From Bacteroidota bacterium (GTDB lineage Bacteria; Bacteroidota; Bacteroidia; Bacteroidales; JAAUTT01), in assembly GCA_030706405.1 (NCBI GenBank), contig JAUZOO010000005.1:248001-312000 (forward strand): 64,000 nt of DNA, written 5' to 3'. Positions 54,309 through 64,000 of the stretch are shown piece by piece (positions within the stretch are counted from its first letter, which is position 1; each line of letters starts with the position of its first letter). A program made the position numbers and the translations under genes. The notes below the pieces were generated by a model, which was not told where the DNA came from, ran no database searches, and saw only the letters and a list, made by a program, of their open reading frames with translations.

Positions 54309-54390
54309 TAAGATAATACAAAAATTGAGCCAGACGCACAGTGTGCTGGGCTGGAGGAGTGTCTGTTAAAAAATTATGCCATAAAAGAAA

Positions 54391-54427
54391 ACGCCGAAAC
54401 TGCATTTCACACTGCAATTTCGGCGTC
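54391..54427 (-). terminator. terminator after the GH2 pseudogene
   Basis: Minus-strand GACGCCGAAATTGCAG pairs with GCAGTTTCGGCGT (one mismatch), followed by TTTCTTTTA. 60 bases past the GH2 stop. Confidence 0.75.
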
Positions 54428-54487: not shown

Positions 54488-56347
54488 CTATTTTATGAGT
54501 ACATCAACCATGTTGGATAACAATTTAGCGGCAATTGGATCGGTGTTTGCTTTTTCAAGGCTCATGGTGGAGATAAGCAATGTTCCCTTATCGGTAATTT
54601 TTACGATAGGAAAGCCCTTAATACCTTGCATATACGCAGAACGTTGATCCATTTCGCCATTAATATAGCCATGAATTTTGGTTTGCGAGGCTAAGCCTTC
54701 AACATTGGAGTTACGATTGATTTTCAGGGCAACATGACAAACTGTAGGAATTTCGCGTTTGTTATTATTGAAATACCTAACCTCCAGTGGGGATATGCCG
54801 TTAAAGACAGATGACTCAGGGATTTCCATGTTTACAATATCGCCTTCGGTTGGAACAATCCAATCCTTGATATATTCCGGGTACATTTCCTTAAGCGCTT
54901 TTTCAGAGTCTAGCCATAAAACCTTGCCGCCCTGAGCTATCATAGATCTTACTTGACGCAGTTCTTCGGCAGTGCAGTTTGACAATAAGTTTAATCCGGA
55001 AAAGACATAGACATCACCTTTCGTTTTTAAAGCCTCGGTAACTGAAACCGCCTGAGTGTAATTAACCTTCAGATAATCAAAAGAAGTTTTCATATTGTTA
55101 AAATCAACCAGTACAATCTTTTTATTTTGGATCAAAGCCGGTTGAGCCCACGCTTTATTGGCAAGCAGAATCTTATATTCGTTTTCAGAAATAACGTTGT
55201 CATTTTGAGTCAGTTTCAGGACAAGGCGGGCTTCAGTTTTGGCCGATGGCAATGTTGCTGGAATCGTAATTTCCGGGGTAAGCCATTCGCGTGAATAATG
55301 TTTTACAGCCGGAACAGCTTCATTTCCTGAGGCAATAATAAAACCTCCAGCTCCTAACAACTGCCACGAAAGCATTGATTTGTCAAGGTTGGAGCCATCC
55401 TCTTTATCGTTTATTACACAAATACGAGTGGGTAATTTTTCCCCAGAATAGAAATTTCTTCCCCAAAGTTCGGCACTCACCAGAACGGGCTGAAGAGCTC
55501 GTTTCATTGCATAATATGTAGGATATGGCTCAATATGGTTGGGATCGTAAACATTACGGAACTAGGTAAGGAGCGCGAAATGAAGTATACCCGAACTCTT
55601 ATCGTTAGAGCGGCGAAGCGCTTCGGCAAGTTCGCCGGTTATGAAGGACTGTACTTCGAGGAAATTGGCAGGATCGCTATATTCCTAAGCCAAATTACCA
55701 ATCAGAGTTTGCGGATTTTGATGGATAATGGTGTAAAAGCGCGTCGGATGGCCGGTTTCGTTGTTAGGATATCCGGTCGACATCTCTTGGCTGATTAACG
55801 GACGGCCTTCGTTACGGTTTGACCGCTGAAATTCTCCGTTAAATTGTTTAAAAATGGTGTGATCGTACCAATTTATATAGGAATGTATGTCATCGATGTC
55901 TCCATCGTCAATGGTATTATAAAAATCCTGACCGAATTTTTTAACATTGCGCCGATAATTGGAGTCGAAACAAATCGGACGTGTTGGGTCAACTTTACGC
56001 ATTCCTTTTACCACATCCGAAATAATTTTCATTTTAAGTTTAGCCTTGTCGAAATCGGGTTCGTTATCATAAAACTTCATTTCGTTATTAACAGTCCATA
56101 AGAGTAACGACGGGTGATTCCGGTTTTTTTTAAGAAGCGACAGGAATTCGTCGGCCCACAAATCGATGAGTTTTTTGTCGGGCATAGAACTATTTATCAT
56201 CAGCCAGGGCCATGTTCCTTCGTAGCTTACGCCAATACCGTTACGATCTGCAGCATCCATCCACAATTGATTGTAGGGAGCAGTATGTGTACGGGTAACT
56301 TCAATATTGCCGGCTTTCATTATCTGTTTGAAGAAGGTACCCGGCAA
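54488..56347 (-). pseudogene. GH2 family glycosidase pseudogene, 5' truncated, two in-frame TAG
   Basis: Remains of a glycoside hydrolase family 2 enzyme. The catalytic domain begins near 56.34 kb (FFKQIMKAGNIEVTRTH, HPSLLLWTVNNEM with the acid/base Glu, GRPLISQEMSTGY with the nucleophile-type Glu) and a C-terminal domain follows. One single reading frame runs the whole length but is broken by TAG at 55687-55685 (after GNLA) and at 55564-55562 (after HFALLT, before FRNVYDPN). The second stands where related enzymes have Trp, so TGG to TAG fits. The whole N-terminal sugar-binding part is missing and a histidine kinase follows instead. Confidence 0.88.
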
Positions 56348-57511
56348 CTCATTGCTGCCAAAGAAAAAGCTGAAGAATCGGACCGGCTTAAATCTTCATT
56401 TCTGGCAAACCTATCTCACGAAATCCGAACTCCTTTAAATGCCATTATTGGATTTTCTGGACTGCTATCCGACAAAGATATCCCTGATGAAGAAAAAGAC
56501 TCCTTTAATACCATTATCAAACGCAGTAGCGATATGCTTTTAAGCCTTATCAACGATGTTATTGATTTCTCAAAAATTGAAGCAGGACAGCTCCAGGTGA
56601 ATATCACCGCTGTTCCTCTTCACAAAATTACCACCCAGGTTCATGACATCTTTAATCTCGAACTAAAAAAACAACAAGGCGAAATAGTACATGATCTCGA
56701 CTTTATCGTGAACGTTCCTCCAAAGTATCAGACATTAACACTTTCGACCGACGAAATTCGTTTAATGCAAATTATCAGTAACCTGATTAACAATGCCATA
56801 AAGTTTACCTCCAAAGGAAAAATTGAATTTGGTTGTAAAGAATGTCAAAACGGGGATTGGATAGAATTTTTTGTTAAAGACACCGGAATTGGCATGAAAA
56901 AAGAATACCTGTCGGTTATTTTTCAACGATTCAGAAAAATAGAAGAAACTCCAAATCAGGTTTATCGGGGCGCCGGATTAGGATTGGCAATCTCATCAGA
57001 ACTGGCCAATTTGCTCGGAGGCAAAATATCCGTTGAATCGGTTCCCAATATTGGATCTGTATTCTCAATTCAAATTCCGCTTAAAAAAGAGGTGTCGGCT
57101 TACACCCCTCCGGCCCCTGTTCTAACATCTCCTAATTATCCTTACTATAAAGGTTTTAATATTTTAATTGCGGAAGATAACCAGAGTAACTATTTATTTC
57201 TCGAAAAAATTCTAAATAAAACCAGGGTTAACATATATCATGCAACTAACGGACAGCAAGCCGTATCCTTAGCTGAAAAAATCCCTGATCTACATGTAAT
57301 TCTGATGGATATAAAAATGCCCGAAATGAATGGGATAGAGGCTTTACACGCAATCCGGAGAAAAAAGCTGTCCATTCCCATTGTTGCCCAAACCGCCTAC
57401 GCCCTTGCCGATGAAGTTTATAATTTAAAAAATGAAGGCTTTTCTGACTACATTTTAAAACCTGTCAATCCGAACGACCTTTTTAAGCTATTGAATAAGT
57501 ATCTGATCTAA
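56335..57511 (+). pseudogene. hybrid histidine kinase, 5' truncated
   Basis: Encodes the C-terminal 390 or so residues of a hybrid kinase: AKEKAEESDRLKSSFLANLSHEIRTPLNAIIGF (written here in parts: AKEKAEESDRLKS and FLANLSHEIRTPLN), HATPase_c with DTGIGMKKEY and GAGLGLAISS, and a receiver (ILIAEDNQSNYLF, acceptor Asp in VILMDIKMPEMNG, Lys in YILKPVNPNDL). The input domain is missing; upstream in-frame codons back to ATG 56114 are antisense GH2 sequence. Whether a shortened protein is made is unknown. Its receiver resembles the stand-alone one at 3.9 kb. Confidence 0.85.
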
Positions 57512-57530
57512 ATAACAAGATCTTTTTAAA

Positions 57531-57564
57531 CGCTCGAAGCCCTTATTTATCGGAGCTTTGAGCG
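57531..57564. terminator. hairpin between the kinase remnant and the GH105 gene
   Basis: Stem CGCTCGAAGC / GCTTTGAGCG (one G-T pair) between convergent gene ends; it can serve both directions. T-runs are short. Confidence 0.6.
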
Positions 57565-57587
57565 TATATAATAGTTTATACTAGTTG

Positions 57588-59480
57588 TTATTTTTTCAAA
57601 TTATTGTTACAAGCTATTTTAATCATTTCGGCTCCGGCCATCAGAAAAGCCCCGCTTCCGTATTCCTGATTATCTTCAGGTTTCACATTTTCGGGTTTTT
57701 CGCCAATTAGCTGAACATATTTGAGTTTACCATCGGCATCTACGGCTTCATTGATAGCTTGCCAGCCCTTTTTCACTTTGGGCAGAAACGTTTCTCTATC
57801 CAAAATTCCATTATTGATTCCCCAGGCCATTGCATATGTAAAGAATGAACTTCCGCTGGTTTCTCTCACAGGAACCTCGTCCGGATCGAGAAGACTTGCC
57901 CGCCACAATCCGTCGGTTTGTTGCAGGGAAGCCACCTTTACCATGATCTCCCGGTAATGATCCTCGAACCGTTTGTATCCGGGATATTCTTTAGGCATGG
58001 TTGTCAATATCTGAACCAATCCGCCAATCACCCAGGCATTTCCTCTGGACCAAAAAGCGCGTTTACCTTTGCGCGTTAGAGCTGTAAAGTAGCGGCTATC
58101 CCTGAAATACAGGCTATCGCTTTTGCTATATAAATAGTCCGAAGTATCCCAATACATTTGATCGAGGTATTCGTAATACTTGTTATCTCCTGTAATCTTT
58201 CCCAAACGGGCCAATACCGGAGGTTCCATAAAAAGAGCATCGCACCACCACCAGTCTTTTCGGCCGGGTTTAGGATTGGCAATAAGCGTATCGATTGCAG
58301 ATTTTATTCCGTTCAACATTTTAGGGTCTTTAACAACTGCGTATGCATCCAGGTAGGCCTGTCCGCATGCCAAATCGTCGGCATGCCGGAACTTGGGGCC
58401 GCGTTTCCAACCCGAAACCTCACCCCATCGTTGGGTTTGGTTCAAATAAGAAGTATCACCGGTGGCCCGATAAGCATACATGATACCCGAATAGAAAACC
58501 GACCGGGCCCACTGCTCCTTAAATTCGTTAATCGCAATCGGGTGCTGCACCTGCCATTTAAAAACACTCGCCATAATACTTCTTACATACGTGTTGCCAT
58601 AGATATCGGATAACTTTGCGTTTATAACCGTAAACGGGGTTACCGAATTGGGTTTCTTCACTGCGGCATGAGCTGCCATCTGGGCAATCTCCACCTGTTC
58701 TTTGGTTAACTTTTCGGGAGCATAGGCATTTCCAATGACCGATTTCCCAAAGAGTGTTTCAAACCAGGTGCAGGCTGCCGTATATCTTCCCAGATCGTAT
58801 GATAAGTGATAGCCATCCCGGTTAAATTTATCGCCAACGTAGGACGTCCGGCCATTTTGAATTGCTGTTCCTGATGGGATTATTATCATGATCCCCATCT
58901 TGTGAGCCGCCTTATTAATAGCAACAACAATGGAGTCGTACATTGCCTGCTGGTTCCTGTTATAATAATTAAAACCCGTATGGGTCGACGTCTTCGCATA
59001 AGCCCACGTCTGGTGCATGGCATATTTTACCTTCGGGTTCAGGGCATTCGCTTTTACATACTGAAACAAATTCGACAGATAAGGAAAATAAGAATTTTGT
59101 TGTCCTGATAACGGACTTGCCTGCTGAAAAGTGATATAATCCCATTTTTCTTCTTTGATGCACGAGAGCATTGTCCGGTCCGGATAAACGGTCCTTTTTC
59201 CATCGATAATTTTTCGATAGGAATATTTAGGAAGATTTCCTTCAGCATTCGTCCAATGAGTCTGCAACGAACATCCTCCAATGAACAAATTTCCAATAAT
59301 ATACTTAGTTCCGTTTTGAGAGATTAGCCCTCCCAGATAAGCCTCTGTGGCATCTTCGGAGAAGCTATTTCCAATAGCCAGAATCTTAATTACTTTCTGA
59401 GCATTAACCGACGTCTGACAAAACAATACCAATGTCAACACAACAACGCCCAGTGTGCGCCTAAACAATTTGTAAGTCAT
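57588..59480 (-). CDS. SGNH-like (DUF4886) and GH105 two-domain protein
   Basis: 630 residues with signal peptide (YKLFRRTLGVVVLTLVLFCQ, cut near VNAQ). Residues about 30-285 form a DUF4886/SGNH hydrolase-like domain: ILAIGNSFSEDATEAYL has the nucleophile-type Ser, and GYHLSYDLGRY holds the Asp/His-like end. Residues about 290-625 are a GH88/GH105 unsaturated glucuronyl hydrolase: SWRHADDLA-like KFRHADDLACGQAYLDAY, KDWWWCDALFMEPPVLARLG and FWSRGNAWVIGGL. It would remove an ester and then an unsaturated uronic acid from lyase products. The heparinase-like gene lies 42 bases upstream. Confidence 0.92.
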   Translation of the reverse strand: MTYKLFRRTLGVVVLTLVLFCQTSVNAQKVIKILAIGNSFSEDATEAYLGGLISQNGTKYIIGNLFIGGCSLQTHWTNAEGNLPKYSYRKIIDGKRTVYPDRTMLSCIKEEKWDYITFQQASPLSGQQNSYFPYLSNLFQYVKANALNPKVKYAMHQTWAYAKTSTHTGFNYYNRNQQAMYDSIVVAINKAAHKMGIMIIIPSGTAIQNGRTSYVGDKFNRDGYHLSYDLGRYTAACTWFETLFGKSVIGNAYAPEKLTKEQVEIAQMAAHAAVKKPNSVTPFTVINAKLSDIYGNTYVRSIMASVFKWQVQHPIAINEFKEQWARSVFYSGIMYAYRATGDTSYLNQTQRWGEVSGWKRGPKFRHADDLACGQAYLDAYAVVKDPKMLNGIKSAIDTLIANPKPGRKDWWWCDALFMEPPVLARLGKITGDNKYYEYLDQMYWDTSDYLYSKSDSLYFRDSRYFTALTRKGKRAFWSRGNAWVIGGLVQILTTMPKEYPGYKRFEDHYREIMVKVASLQQTDGLWRASLLDPDEVPVRETSGSSFFTYAMAWGINNGILDRETFLPKVKKGWQAINEAVDADGKLKYVQLIGEKPENVKPEDNQEYGSGAFLMAGAEMIKIACNNNLKK

Positions 59481-59522
59481 ATATTTATATTTTTCAAAAA
59501 CTGTACTTCTTTGATCTATAGA

Positions 59523-61379
59523 TTATTCATTCCAATATTGCAACGGTTGTATCGTTTGTCCGGGTTTAACTCCCTCAGGAATAAACTGAACCGAGAATAC
59601 CGTTTTGGTTAACGCCGAAACCTTTGTTTCGAACCCGACCAGCACCACTCCGGGATTAGGAGCATCGTATGATGCAGGAGTTGGCGTTTCCCATTTCTGT
59701 AAACGAATATCTTCCGGACCATCTATTTTCAACGTCAGCCTTTTTCCTCCTTGTATCAACAATGCTGTATGAGTATCTTTTATCTCCACGGTTGCCCGGG
59801 TAAGAATCTTCCAACGGATGGTTGCCACGTTGTTGCCGGTTTCTACCTCGTCCCGGACAAGAACATAACTGTTATCGATCAGCGCTACGCCTCTCTCTGC
59901 CTTAGCCAGATAACCTTTATATACCTGCGACAAATCGACAACTGCATTCTGAAAAGACGGATGATTCCCGGACTGTATAATAGGCGCACTCCCATTCACC
60001 CATTGAAGGCTGTCATTTACAGTCAATGTGTTGTGCATACGATTGGTGTACCGCAAAACGCTCCATCGCTGCCCGTGCTGACTGTTATTCCATATATTTA
60101 ACCCTTTTGATTCCAGCGATTCATACTCCTGCATCCCCAGATCAATAGCCCAGCGAATGCCTTCTGCATCCAAAACGAAAGAACCTTCATCCATGTGCGC
60201 ATGGCTGGTAGATGGGGAACCTCCTTTGAAAGCAACGTACACTGCATCGGGGTCTGTCCATGACGAACGCATGACGGCAACCGGGGTTTCTCCTTTGCTC
60301 ACCCACATCGTTGAAGGTGGGATATCTATCGCGTCGAGATGTTGCCCTGCCCCCCAAACCATCAGAGCTGGTAATAACCGCTCATTAGCCAATGATTTAG
60401 GGTTCTCTGTAATATACCTTTTCTCATTCCTCAATAAATAATTACGGCTTCCTTGCTTTCCCGAAAACCAAAACATGGCAGGATTTATTTGGCCCCGTTC
60501 GTGGCCATCACTATAGTCAAAGTAAAGTCCTGAGGGACCGGTTACATGTAAAAGGTAATCGGCTGTTTTCAGGAATCCGGGCATAGCGGATAAACCAAAA
60601 TCCTGCTTAAAAACCTTTTCAACAGCACTAATGAACAATACATTAAAGGATGTCCCATATCCCCAATACATTGGGCCTTCAGCATAACCTCCATCAGGTC
60701 CATAATTGGTCATAGGAATCTTTATGGATTGAATGGCTCGCTCTATGATTTTATCGGCCAAAGCCGGATTTTCCTCATAAACCGACAGTGCTCCATACGT
60801 CATCCCCGCATTGCAGACCTGGTTCCAGTTGTTGGTCCATGTTTGCCACTTATTATAATTATCTTTCAATGATTCCTCAATCCCCTTTTTCAAGATAGCG
60901 GTTTTTATGATCTTACGGGAAGTCTCCGGCAACCTGTTGTACAGCCAATCGTAACCGATGGCTAGGGCCATGGTCATTTCGGCCACATCTAAAAAATGGG
61001 TCGGGTTCCAGTCTGTAAATGCAGAAACGGCCAACATTTCTTCTTCTGCCCGCTGAAAGTAGCGGTCATCGTGCGTCATGCGGTAGGCGTACGAAAGGAA
61101 AAAAACACGACGAAGGCACTCTCTCGACTTATCCAACAGCCGTCTGCCAATTTTAATCTGCTTTACCGGAGGCTCAAGCAAAAAGGCATCGCACTTCTTC
61201 ATAATCTGTTGATGGACCAGAGCCAATACCGAATCCGAGCCAACAGCATTTTTTATAGCATTTTCCTCTCCACGCAAGAGTAATAGCCGGGGATGAAATG
61301 GCATCTTCACTACTGTTTGAGCATTAATCCCTAGTGCGACCGAGAAAAAAACGACCAACAAAAGCAATAATTTATTCAT
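59523..61379 (-). CDS. heparinase II/III family polysaccharide lyase
   Basis: About 618 residues from ATG 61379 (MNKLLLLLVVFFSVALG signal, cut near NAQ); a TTT-proximal start at 61421 would overlap the neighbour. An N-terminal alpha/alpha toroid (ECLRRVFFLSYAYRMTHDDRYF, GYDWLYNRLPETSR, NNWNQVCNAGMTYGAL) is joined to a C-terminal beta-sandwich with SHAHMDEGSFVLDAEG and DLGMQEY, as in heparinase II/III lyases. It would cleave an acidic glycan by beta-elimination and yield the unsaturated uronic ends that the downstream GH105 removes. The glycan is not determined. Confidence 0.9.
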   Translation of the reverse strand: MNKLLLLLVVFFSVALGINAQTVVKMPFHPRLLLLRGEENAIKNAVGSDSVLALVHQQIMKKCDAFLLEPPVKQIKIGRRLLDKSRECLRRVFFLSYAYRMTHDDRYFQRAEEEMLAVSAFTDWNPTHFLDVAEMTMALAIGYDWLYNRLPETSRKIIKTAILKKGIEESLKDNYNKWQTWTNNWNQVCNAGMTYGALSVYEENPALADKIIERAIQSIKIPMTNYGPDGGYAEGPMYWGYGTSFNVLFISAVEKVFKQDFGLSAMPGFLKTADYLLHVTGPSGLYFDYSDGHERGQINPAMFWFSGKQGSRNYLLRNEKRYITENPKSLANERLLPALMVWGAGQHLDAIDIPPSTMWVSKGETPVAVMRSSWTDPDAVYVAFKGGSPSTSHAHMDEGSFVLDAEGIRWAIDLGMQEYESLESKGLNIWNNSQHGQRWSVLRYTNRMHNTLTVNDSLQWVNGSAPIIQSGNHPSFQNAVVDLSQVYKGYLAKAERGVALIDNSYVLVRDEVETGNNVATIRWKILTRATVEIKDTHTALLIQGGKRLTLKIDGPEDIRLQKWETPTPASYDAPNPGVVLVGFETKVSALTKTVFSVQFIPEGVKPGQTIQPLQYWNE

Positions 61380-61410
61380 TATATGACAATTTAAATATGC
61401 TATTCCAAAT

Positions 61411-63264
61411 TTACTTTTCATTTAAAAGCGATCTTCCCAGGTTATAATTCTGCTTTTTAGGCAAATCTGCTTTGCCAACACCCTTCTCCATCAACTTTTT
61501 AAGATCCGGGAAATATTGCTCGTAGATGTCGCGGGGAAGCACATTGTTCTGCTTACATAGCGAAGCAGCCATTCCCAACACCTCTCCCATCATTCCTCCG
61601 GTACGCATCAGCCGGACGGTCCCCAGGGCAACATGCGTTACACTGATATTGCGACCTGCCATAAATAAATTGGGTACATTGCGCGAATACATACAACGGT
61701 AAGGTATCGGATACGGATAAATGGGGATATGACGGGCTATGGATAAATATTCATTTCCCGGGAATTGAGCAGTATTTTTAGGATCGGGGTAATGAAGGTC
61801 TATCGACCACGAAGTCGGCGCTGTACCATCGGGATATAATACTTTATCTTTCAAATCCTGTTCTTTCAATATCAAATCGCCAATCAACCGGCGCGACTCC
61901 CGCTTCCCGGCAACATAAGCCACCCATTTAAGCTGTGAGTTACGATAACTTTCAGCTTTGGAATAATGATTTTTGAGATACGACCAGTTTGAAAAAACAA
62001 CCAGCAATCCATAATCGCGGATGCGTTCAAAATCCTTTATCTGGTCGTATTCCATACCCGTTTCCCAGTTCCAGTCGCCAAATTTCAATTTCTGAACCGT
62101 TTTCTCGTCAATCTTCAATCCCCAGGTTATATCAGGAAACGTTACCGGCGATGCGGCTTCTTCCGAATTCCACTGAACGGAAGCGCCCATGGTCATTTTA
62201 TCCCCTTTTTCGGGAGCCGTGGGTTCATTAAACTCACCGCGACTTTCGCGTCCCATCATAAAATCGGCTCCGGCCAGTGCGCCGATAGTACCGTCGCCCG
62301 TGCAATCGGCAAAAAGAGGTGCTGTAAAAATTGATTCTTTGGAAGTCTCAGTGTTGGTGGCAATTACAGCCGCAATAGACGTTCCATTCATTTTTACAGC
62401 ATTTGCCCGACAGTTTAGAAACAAGGTTATATTTTTCTCGTTTTTAACAGCTTCCAGCTTCTTATCATCTTCGTAATAAGCGGCCGGTCGTGCATTCCCT
62501 TCTTTGTCAGGGCCAATCTCATTCACCAGGTTTCCTAAGGCAGGGTATGGCTCCAAGTTGATTCTGGCCCCTAAATGCACACGAACTTCGGAGCTGTTGT
62601 TCCCGCCAAGAACAGGACGGTCTTGGATAAGAGCCACTTTTAATCCCAGACGGGCTGCCGATATTGCAGCACAGATTCCGGCCATACCGCCACCCACTAC
62701 CACAAAATCGAACTGACCGGCAGGTTCCGGAGCTGCGGGCAGGTTTAACATTTTTTTGCGGAAAGCGGCCAACTCCTTAAGGTCGTTGGCGGGCTTAAAG
62801 CTAGCATCTTTTGAAAAGACAATGGCATCGCAACGGCCGTTAAACCCGGTAAGGTCGTGAAGTGCCAACATACTATTGCCTTTTTTAACGGAGATGGTTC
62901 CGCCATATTGCCAGTTCCATTCAGCGCCCTGAGAGCCAAACACAGTTGTAAGTGCCTTGCCGTTTACCTTAACCTGGAATTTCCCCGGAGTTTCTTTATC
63001 AGTCCAGTACCCAGTCCAATTACGAGTACGAACAAATACGTGCCAGTTCCCTTTTTCGGGAAATGTGACCGTGGTGGATGCATCGGCCACAGGCGTTCCC
63101 AAGCCATGAGCCATCAAAAACGGAGAACCCATCTGATCCATAAATTGCTGATCCACAACCCAGCCACCCTTGTTGGTAAAACTCTCGGCCTCAACAAATA
63201 CCTGTGAACAAACGGTTGCCGACAGGCACAAAAAACTGCTTATCAGGACAAGTATATTTCTCAT
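61411..63264 (-). CDS. FAD-dependent oxidoreductase with N-terminal carbohydrate-binding-like domain
   Basis: About 617 residues from ATG 63264 (MRNILVLISSFLCLSATVCS signal). Residues about 20-150 form a beta-sandwich resembling carbohydrate-binding modules (VFVEAESFTNKGGWVVDQQF, FPEKGNWHVFVRTRNW). Then comes FAD-binding FDFVVVGGGMAGICAAISAA with RPVLGGNNSSEVRVH, the FAD_oxidored family pattern, ending NLFMAGRNISVTHVALGTVR. Such proteins recur in polysaccharide utilisation loci; the reaction is not established. It overlaps no neighbour once the inner ATG is used. Confidence 0.9.
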   Translation of the reverse strand: MRNILVLISSFLCLSATVCSQVFVEAESFTNKGGWVVDQQFMDQMGSPFLMAHGLGTPVADASTTVTFPEKGNWHVFVRTRNWTGYWTDKETPGKFQVKVNGKALTTVFGSQGAEWNWQYGGTISVKKGNSMLALHDLTGFNGRCDAIVFSKDASFKPANDLKELAAFRKKMLNLPAAPEPAGQFDFVVVGGGMAGICAAISAARLGLKVALIQDRPVLGGNNSSEVRVHLGARINLEPYPALGNLVNEIGPDKEGNARPAAYYEDDKKLEAVKNEKNITLFLNCRANAVKMNGTSIAAVIATNTETSKESIFTAPLFADCTGDGTIGALAGADFMMGRESRGEFNEPTAPEKGDKMTMGASVQWNSEEAASPVTFPDITWGLKIDEKTVQKLKFGDWNWETGMEYDQIKDFERIRDYGLLVVFSNWSYLKNHYSKAESYRNSQLKWVAYVAGKRESRRLIGDLILKEQDLKDKVLYPDGTAPTSWSIDLHYPDPKNTAQFPGNEYLSIARHIPIYPYPIPYRCMYSRNVPNLFMAGRNISVTHVALGTVRLMRTGGMMGEVLGMAASLCKQNNVLPRDIYEQYFPDLKKLMEKGVGKADLPKKQNYNLGRSLLNEK

Positions 63265-63271
63265 ATTCAAC

Positions 63272-64000
63272 TTAGTAAATATTAAACCAATCAATCTTAA
63301 CAGAACCATCGTTCACTTCTACTTTCATCTCATTCAATCCTTTTTTGAAAGATTGAGACTTAAGATTTATCTCCGTCCAATCGGGATTACTAACGGTAAC
63401 CCTTTGCGTTGAGCCATTTATCAGAATTGTCAGCTTGGATGGTTGCTGAACCGCTTTGATCCGCATCGAGACTTTAAATTTCTTATCTTCCAACGATTTA
63501 AAATGATAAGCCGTCCATTCTGAAGCATTGAGCAGGATGAACTGCCCGGGAGCTTTTTGGTGCAAATCATTCTCCATGACATCAACTTTTACCGGTTCTG
63601 TTTTCCGGTAATACGACGAAAGAGTTGCCGTATCCTTAACAAAGTAGGATTTCAGAAACCCGTCGTGCCCGTAATTCTCGGCTTCAATTTTTAAAGGAAT
63701 TTGCCGCAACATGGCATTTACCACATCGGGATAAAAAACACTGTTCTCAAGCTTAATATTTTCGAGCAACTCGTTAAAAATGTCTTCCGGATTATCAACT
63801 GCGGCTTTTTCGCCGGTACGGGAATAGGTTGTGACATTTTCCCAACCTTTGGGCGGTTTAACTGAATATGGCGTATTCTGAGTATCCATCTTTTTCCATG
63901 GCCAAAACGACCATCCGATGTTGTTCTTTTCGAAAAACTGGGTGGTGGCAAAATAAATGGCGTTGTTCTTCTCGCCAGTTTCACCAACCCATATAGGCGT
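63272..64000 (-). CDS. GH5-like glycosidase with C-terminal binding domain, 5' end beyond window
   Basis: Open from the right window edge to the stop at 63272, 243 codons visible. The first codons read TPIWVGETGEKNNAIYF, with the GH5 nucleophile-type Glu, then NNIGWSFWPWKKMDTQNT, the aromatic last strand of a GH5 (cellulase-fold) barrel. About residues 110-240 form a beta-rich domain (IPLKIEAENYGHDGFL to MKVEVNDGSVKIDWFNIY) like CBM6/35-type modules. The catalytic acid is outside. It is the first visible gene of the minus-strand degradation set. Confidence 0.85.
   Translation of the reverse strand, partial: TPIWVGETGEKNNAIYFATTQFFEKNNIGWSFWPWKKMDTQNTPYSVKPPKGWENVTTYSRTGEKAAVDNPEDIFNELLENIKLENSVFYPDVVNAMLRQIPLKIEAENYGHDGFLKSYFVKDTATLSSYYRKTEPVKVDVMENDLHQKAPGQFILLNASEWTAYHFKSLEDKKFKVSMRIKAVQQPSKLTILINGSTQRVTVSNPDWTEINLKSQSFKKGLNEMKVEVNDGSVKIDWFNIY

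Follow-up and report, generated by a model that had tools for sequence, protein, structure and literature searches.

Bacterial pseudogenes formed by deletion and end-joining are a known kind. The locus described here resembles them in that two truncated frames, one of a GH2 gene and one of a hybrid histidine kinase gene, meet with at most a few shared bases, with extra nonsense codons in one of the two; no difference from them is evident, and the gene pair is incidental. The full-length relatives of the kinase resemble the HTCS of Bacteroidetes, as described in PMC3243724 and PMC11253607, in having Reg_prop/Y_Y_Y, HisKA, HATPase, and receiver domains in one chain. Of the HTCS, "most" carry a C-terminal AraC-type DNA-binding domain (PMC3243724), and the AraC-type (HTH_18) domain has been a criterion for collecting HTCS proteins (PMC11253607). 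This domain is missing from the kinase studied here, which has HisKA, HATPase_c, and a receiver in one chain and also lacks the Reg_prop/Y_Y_Y sensor. All four relatives scanned have Reg_prop, Y_Y_Y, HisKA, HATPase_c, and receiver matches, and none has an HTH; it is possible to call the full-length relatives HTCS in a looser use of the name. An earlier sequence-only reading had described kinases of this type as frequent regulators of glycan loci. That description fits HTCS, with their typical terminal AraC-type domain. It draws some support from one of six kinase loci (L156, the one whose neighbours were scanned), which adjoins susC/susD-like genes.

The window, that is, the whole stretch of 64,000 nucleotides that was analysed (G000:C17:248001-312000), comes from an assembly of 4.93 Mb in 21 contigs that is 99.71% complete. 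Its relevant features are the following.

54488..56326, minus strand: GH2 gene remnant of 612 codons, which holds the TIM barrel and the C-terminal region, the C-terminal half of proteins that measure about 1,215 aa in this family, from Pfam and relatives
55562..55564, minus strand: in-frame TAG at a position that is Trp in 70 of 70 relatives
55685..55687, minus strand: in-frame TAG at a position that is Tyr in 67 of 70 relatives and Asp in 3
56114..56327, plus strand: antisense GH2 sequence open in the kinase frame, with GTG at 56114 and ATG at 56285; relatives often have open stretches of comparable length
56324..56332, no strand assigned: junction, with GH2 homology up to CTG (56324-56326) and kinase homology from about 56328
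56328..57511, plus strand: hybrid histidine kinase remnant with HisKA, HATPase_c, receiver domain, and stop codon, the sensor half gone and no C-terminal HTH, from Pfam and relatives
57588..63309, minus strand: flanking genes for a DUF4886/GH88 protein, a heparinase II/III-like protein, and an FAD oxidoreductase, on the same strand as a SusC/SusD locus that extends past the window

The arrangement is best explained, with a probability of roughly 75%, by one real deletion, at least about 4.5 kb long, that took the 5' halves of both genes, GH2 and the Reg_prop/Y_Y_Y hybrid kinase, and whose ends were sealed by end-joining. Such a deletion would have comprised about 1.8 kb of GH2, 2.7-2.9 kb of the kinase, and anything between them, and the ends would have been joined inside both coding sequences, using at most about 3 matching bases.

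Both truncations had been described from the sequence alone, and comparison with full-length relatives bears them out. On the minus strand, about 600 N-terminal residues of the GH2 are absent. The TIM barrel matches Pfam PF02836 (E 3.9e-16) over profile positions 43-216 of 302, a partial barrel, and the translation contains both NNE, which we take to be the putative acid/base motif, and ISQE, presumably that of the nucleophile. The nearest relative (L033), of 1,214 aa, has 3keto-disac_hyd-like, sugar-binding, middle, and TIM-barrel domains, and the remnant starts near residue 602 of this protein. The two are alike in the TIM barrel and C-terminal region, with 77% identity over the shared span (84% over the barrel part and 71% over the C-terminal part), but the N-terminal, sugar-binding, and Glyco_hydro_2 middle domains are missing from the remnant, and two nonsense codons interrupt its frame, so that it does not have the make-up of a functional GH2. 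Just downstream of the GH2 gene in this relative (L033:6109-7008) lies a gene that we take, from its sequence, to be tyrosine recombinase-like. In 70 of 81 GH2 relatives, the open frame exceeds 1,150 aa and at least 578 residues lie ahead of the matched region. Four of the 11 with shorter frames were inspected (L010, L107, L109, and L110), and each encodes the N-terminal half or most of it, in two of them as two pieces at loci with runs of N. L109 and L110 were considered as parallel cases of N-terminal loss and rejected, as both encode this half, in two pieces.

On the plus strand, about 905-960 residues are absent relative to full-length kinases, corresponding to the Reg_prop/Y_Y_Y sensor. 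Across 393 genomes of the order, among them the window's own, ten matches with up to 54% identity were found at E ≤1e-96, spread over nine other genomes; a search of 395 genomes of the class, again with the window's own among them, gave no match at E ≤1e-95 besides the window's own; both searches scored four candidates per genome, so that orthologs may have escaped. Among the matches listed from 60 genomes including its own, identity was at most 47%, and 45% for the best by E-value. Six of the ten matches were read. Frames of 1,298-1,355 aa, with 905-959 residues ahead of the aligned region, are found in five, and the sixth has a 958-aa frame with 560 residues ahead, all counted from stop to stop. 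The remaining four, as given in the match listing, have 45-47% identity and frames of 637-925 aa.

The two homologies had been thought to end at a common breakpoint near 56340. A common breakpoint is indeed present, about 12 bases to the left: when 14 GH2 relatives (from 81 loci with a hit) and six kinase relatives are compared codon by codon, the switch is placed at 56326-56328. On the plus strand, some GH2 relatives (e.g. L040, L045, and, with one change, L036) read GGC TTT CAT TAT CTG ATA, then GAA or AAA, and the kinase relative L155, for example, reads CTT GTT GAA GAA CGT ACC CGC CAG CTC at the matching site; the window reads GGC TTT CAT TAT CTG TTT GAA GAA GGT ACC CGG CAA CTC across the joint. 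Coding homology thus runs right up to the joint on each side, and at most about 3 bases fit both.

A joint of this kind could also be an assembly or library chimera, with two unrelated loci joined in silico, and the neighbourhood of GH2 and kinase was found in no relative examined. Among the own-genome matches listed for window positions 55500-57600, however, none spans the joint; the others begin at 56346 or beyond, and the longer ones are all distant (e.g. 78% over 101 bases). Since the joint sits in no repeat that was found, misassembly via a repeat is unlikely. A chimera would also leave the two nonsense codons on the GH2 side unexplained, and the true continuations of both genes should persist elsewhere in a near-complete assembly, where none was found. 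While the almost undecayed state of the GH2 remnant apart from its stops would suit a chimera, this origin is considered quite unlikely. Near the joint, the repeats found are short and in two copies, and promoter- or terminator-like sites are about as numerous as chance would give. Directly 3' of the GH2 stop, 15 base pairs form a terminator-like hairpin (54390-54427, minus strand), with the regional count of such sites equal to chance, and an imperfect hairpin, seen by eye and not listed in the terminator scan, lies at 57512-57587 between the kinase and GH88 stops.

If the missing halves had been moved and not lost, they should be found elsewhere. Queried with 596 aa of L033, the N-terminal half of GH2, the window's own genome gave only distant matches, the best with 31% identity over residues 332-585. 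The sensor half of a kinase relative (L154) gave 66 matches in the same genome, with 33% identity for the best by E-value. The sensors of the kinase relatives are only 28-49% identical to one another, so identity by itself could hardly separate a displaced sensor from paralogs, and for this reason the frames themselves were inspected at 12 loci, the ten best and two with shorter frames. By eye, these frames continue beyond the sensor into kinase, phosphatase, or HTH-like sequence, several of them cut by the edge of the locus. The shortest, of 937 aa (L165), ends in its own HTH_18 in the Pfam scan and is the sole locus of the 12 so scanned; for the other sensor matches, the assessment used the listed frames, none shorter than 1,289 aa. 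Within the sensitivity of these searches, no displaced copy of either missing half was found in the assembly.

The same searches turned up several sensor proteins of other designs. The 937-aa frame (G000:C16:182782-185112; L165:1033-3843, minus strand) combines a Reg_prop and Y_Y_Y sensor with an AraC-type HTH_18, and Pfam gave neither a kinase nor a receiver match for it. Two further sensor-like proteins of this genome (L170:902-4066 and L171:841-4164) have phosphatase-like C-termini, which from their sequence we take to be of the PP2C/SpoIIE type. One sensor match on C18 (L162) has a stop inside the match.

The outcome of these searches bears on two alternatives at once: with no displaced half found in the genome, misassembly is weakened and an inversion or translocation with breakpoints within both genes is argued against. 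An inversion or translocation would also part both 5' halves in one event, and gene order by a flanking TPR gene varies within the genus; the displaced halves should nevertheless persist, and this origin is regarded as highly improbable. One deletion removing both 5' parts, as proposed in the sequence-only reading, remains the simplest explanation.

The ancestral arrangement is a separate matter. An ancestral divergent pair of GH2 and kinase genes sharing a promoter region had been suggested, and the related loci do not support it. After a scan of genome contigs, 80 of 89 related GH2 loci were retained, with flanks of up to 10 kb that are often shorter because of contig ends. The gene upstream of GH2 is on the same strand in 65 of these, divergent in 10, and absent in 5 (65 of 75 with an upstream gene). 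The gene caller behind these counts is crude, and among the divergent cases the one in L107 is a doubtful 101-aa frame. None of the 80 loci has a kinase match at E 1e-10; at E 1e-5, a single weak partial match appears at the far downstream edge of one (L074). No GH2 match was found in the six kinase loci. The proposed comparison with related genomes likewise yielded no relative with both genes. Because related loci show no such pairing, the GH2 and the kinase may have been distant from each other before the deletion, and genes between them may have been lost as well. The geometry requires that the lost 5' parts faced each other, although they need not have been neighbours.

Closer genomes are of little help in locating the ancestral site. 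In four genomes of the same genus, with 62-63% identity at a flanking protein, no kinase match with E ≤1e-96 was found among the four candidates scored in each; GH2 identity is at most 35% among the matches listed for three of them, and none is listed for the fourth. Upstream of the flanking TPR protein, three of the four have a gene that we take, from its sequence, to be pnp, which lies on another contig in the window's genome. Synteny was therefore rejected as a guide, gene order being too fluid within the genus, as the differing surroundings of the TPR gene illustrate.

These surroundings leave room for a history of several steps, in which a piece of a kinase landed beside or within an already dead GH2 and further losses followed. 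To the right of the joint is the downstream end of the SusC/SusD locus, all on the minus strand, with GH3, GH36, glucuronyl-esterase-like, GH2, FAD oxidoreductase, heparinase-like, and GH88 genes. From position and strand, the GH2 remnant may be the former last gene of this neighbouring locus, and the kinase, on the opposite strand, looks like the odd gene out; the prevalence of same-strand upstream genes among the GH2 relatives and the result for the kinase in the four same-genus genomes point the same way. The route requires more events, and the sequence beyond the kinase yielded no remnant of GH2. Only 76 bases (57512-57587) separate the stops of the kinase and GH88 genes, and a GH2 relative gave no match in window positions 57501-64000, so that a simple insertion leaving the GH2 5' half on the far side is not seen; repeats in 55800-58200 are limited to short two-copy ones. 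A stepwise origin is accordingly rated as unlikely. Some points do count against the single deletion: no undeleted relative was found, which leaves the ancestral order open to several events, the GH2 remnant is nearly undecayed besides its TAG codons, and the divergence among the relatives' sensors could hide a displaced copy.

The two TAG codons, the only interruptions in the GH2 frame, were not mentioned in the sequence-only reading and mark the GH2 as dead on separate grounds. TAG terminates 5 of the 31 window frames of at least 300 aa in a mechanical count that includes chance frames. In 139 columns near-invariant among 70 relatives (11 of 81, whose frames do not exceed 1,150 aa, were left out beforehand), the remnant's only deviation is the Trp stop; it deviates at none of the other 138 and ranks 53rd of 71 in deviation. 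By this measure, the loss of GH2 function is recent. Without a native start or sugar-binding domains and with two nonsense codons, the GH2 is, as read from its sequence, a dead gene.

The kinase core has no sign of decay: its identity to six relatives is 48-54%, and theirs to one another is 45-60%, so its divergence equals that among relatives. No stop occurs in its 390 codons, compared with two in the 612 of GH2, a difference that is not significant. The kinase has a catalytic core that can still be read, no sensor, and probably no promoter. In principle, the open core could be made without the sensor. Any product would have to start fortuitously in antisense GH2 sequence, for example at ATG 56285 behind GGGAG. 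That the deletion made a new chimeric gene, with this ATG and the GGGAG just upstream of it giving a soluble, sensorless HisKA-HATPase-REC protein of about 408 residues that would signal constitutively or act as a phosphate sink, is very doubtful. The antisense open frame was rejected as a sign of a gene, its length being unexceptional: the window has 73 open codons, and 77 relatives range from 0 to 562, with at least 73 in 18 and a start codon in 67. In this count, 4 of 81 relatives were dropped for want of the anchor motif, and the register was anchored on Gln in only 43 of the 77.

The joint is most likely the scar of a real deletion, placed at base resolution and ordinary in kind. Automated annotation might take the 465-aa frame from 56114 for an intact hybrid kinase and divide the GH2 remnant into two genes, and either call would be misleading. 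The finding carries little weight beyond its own genome, in which one glycan-degradation enzyme and one sensor kinase were apparently lost together.
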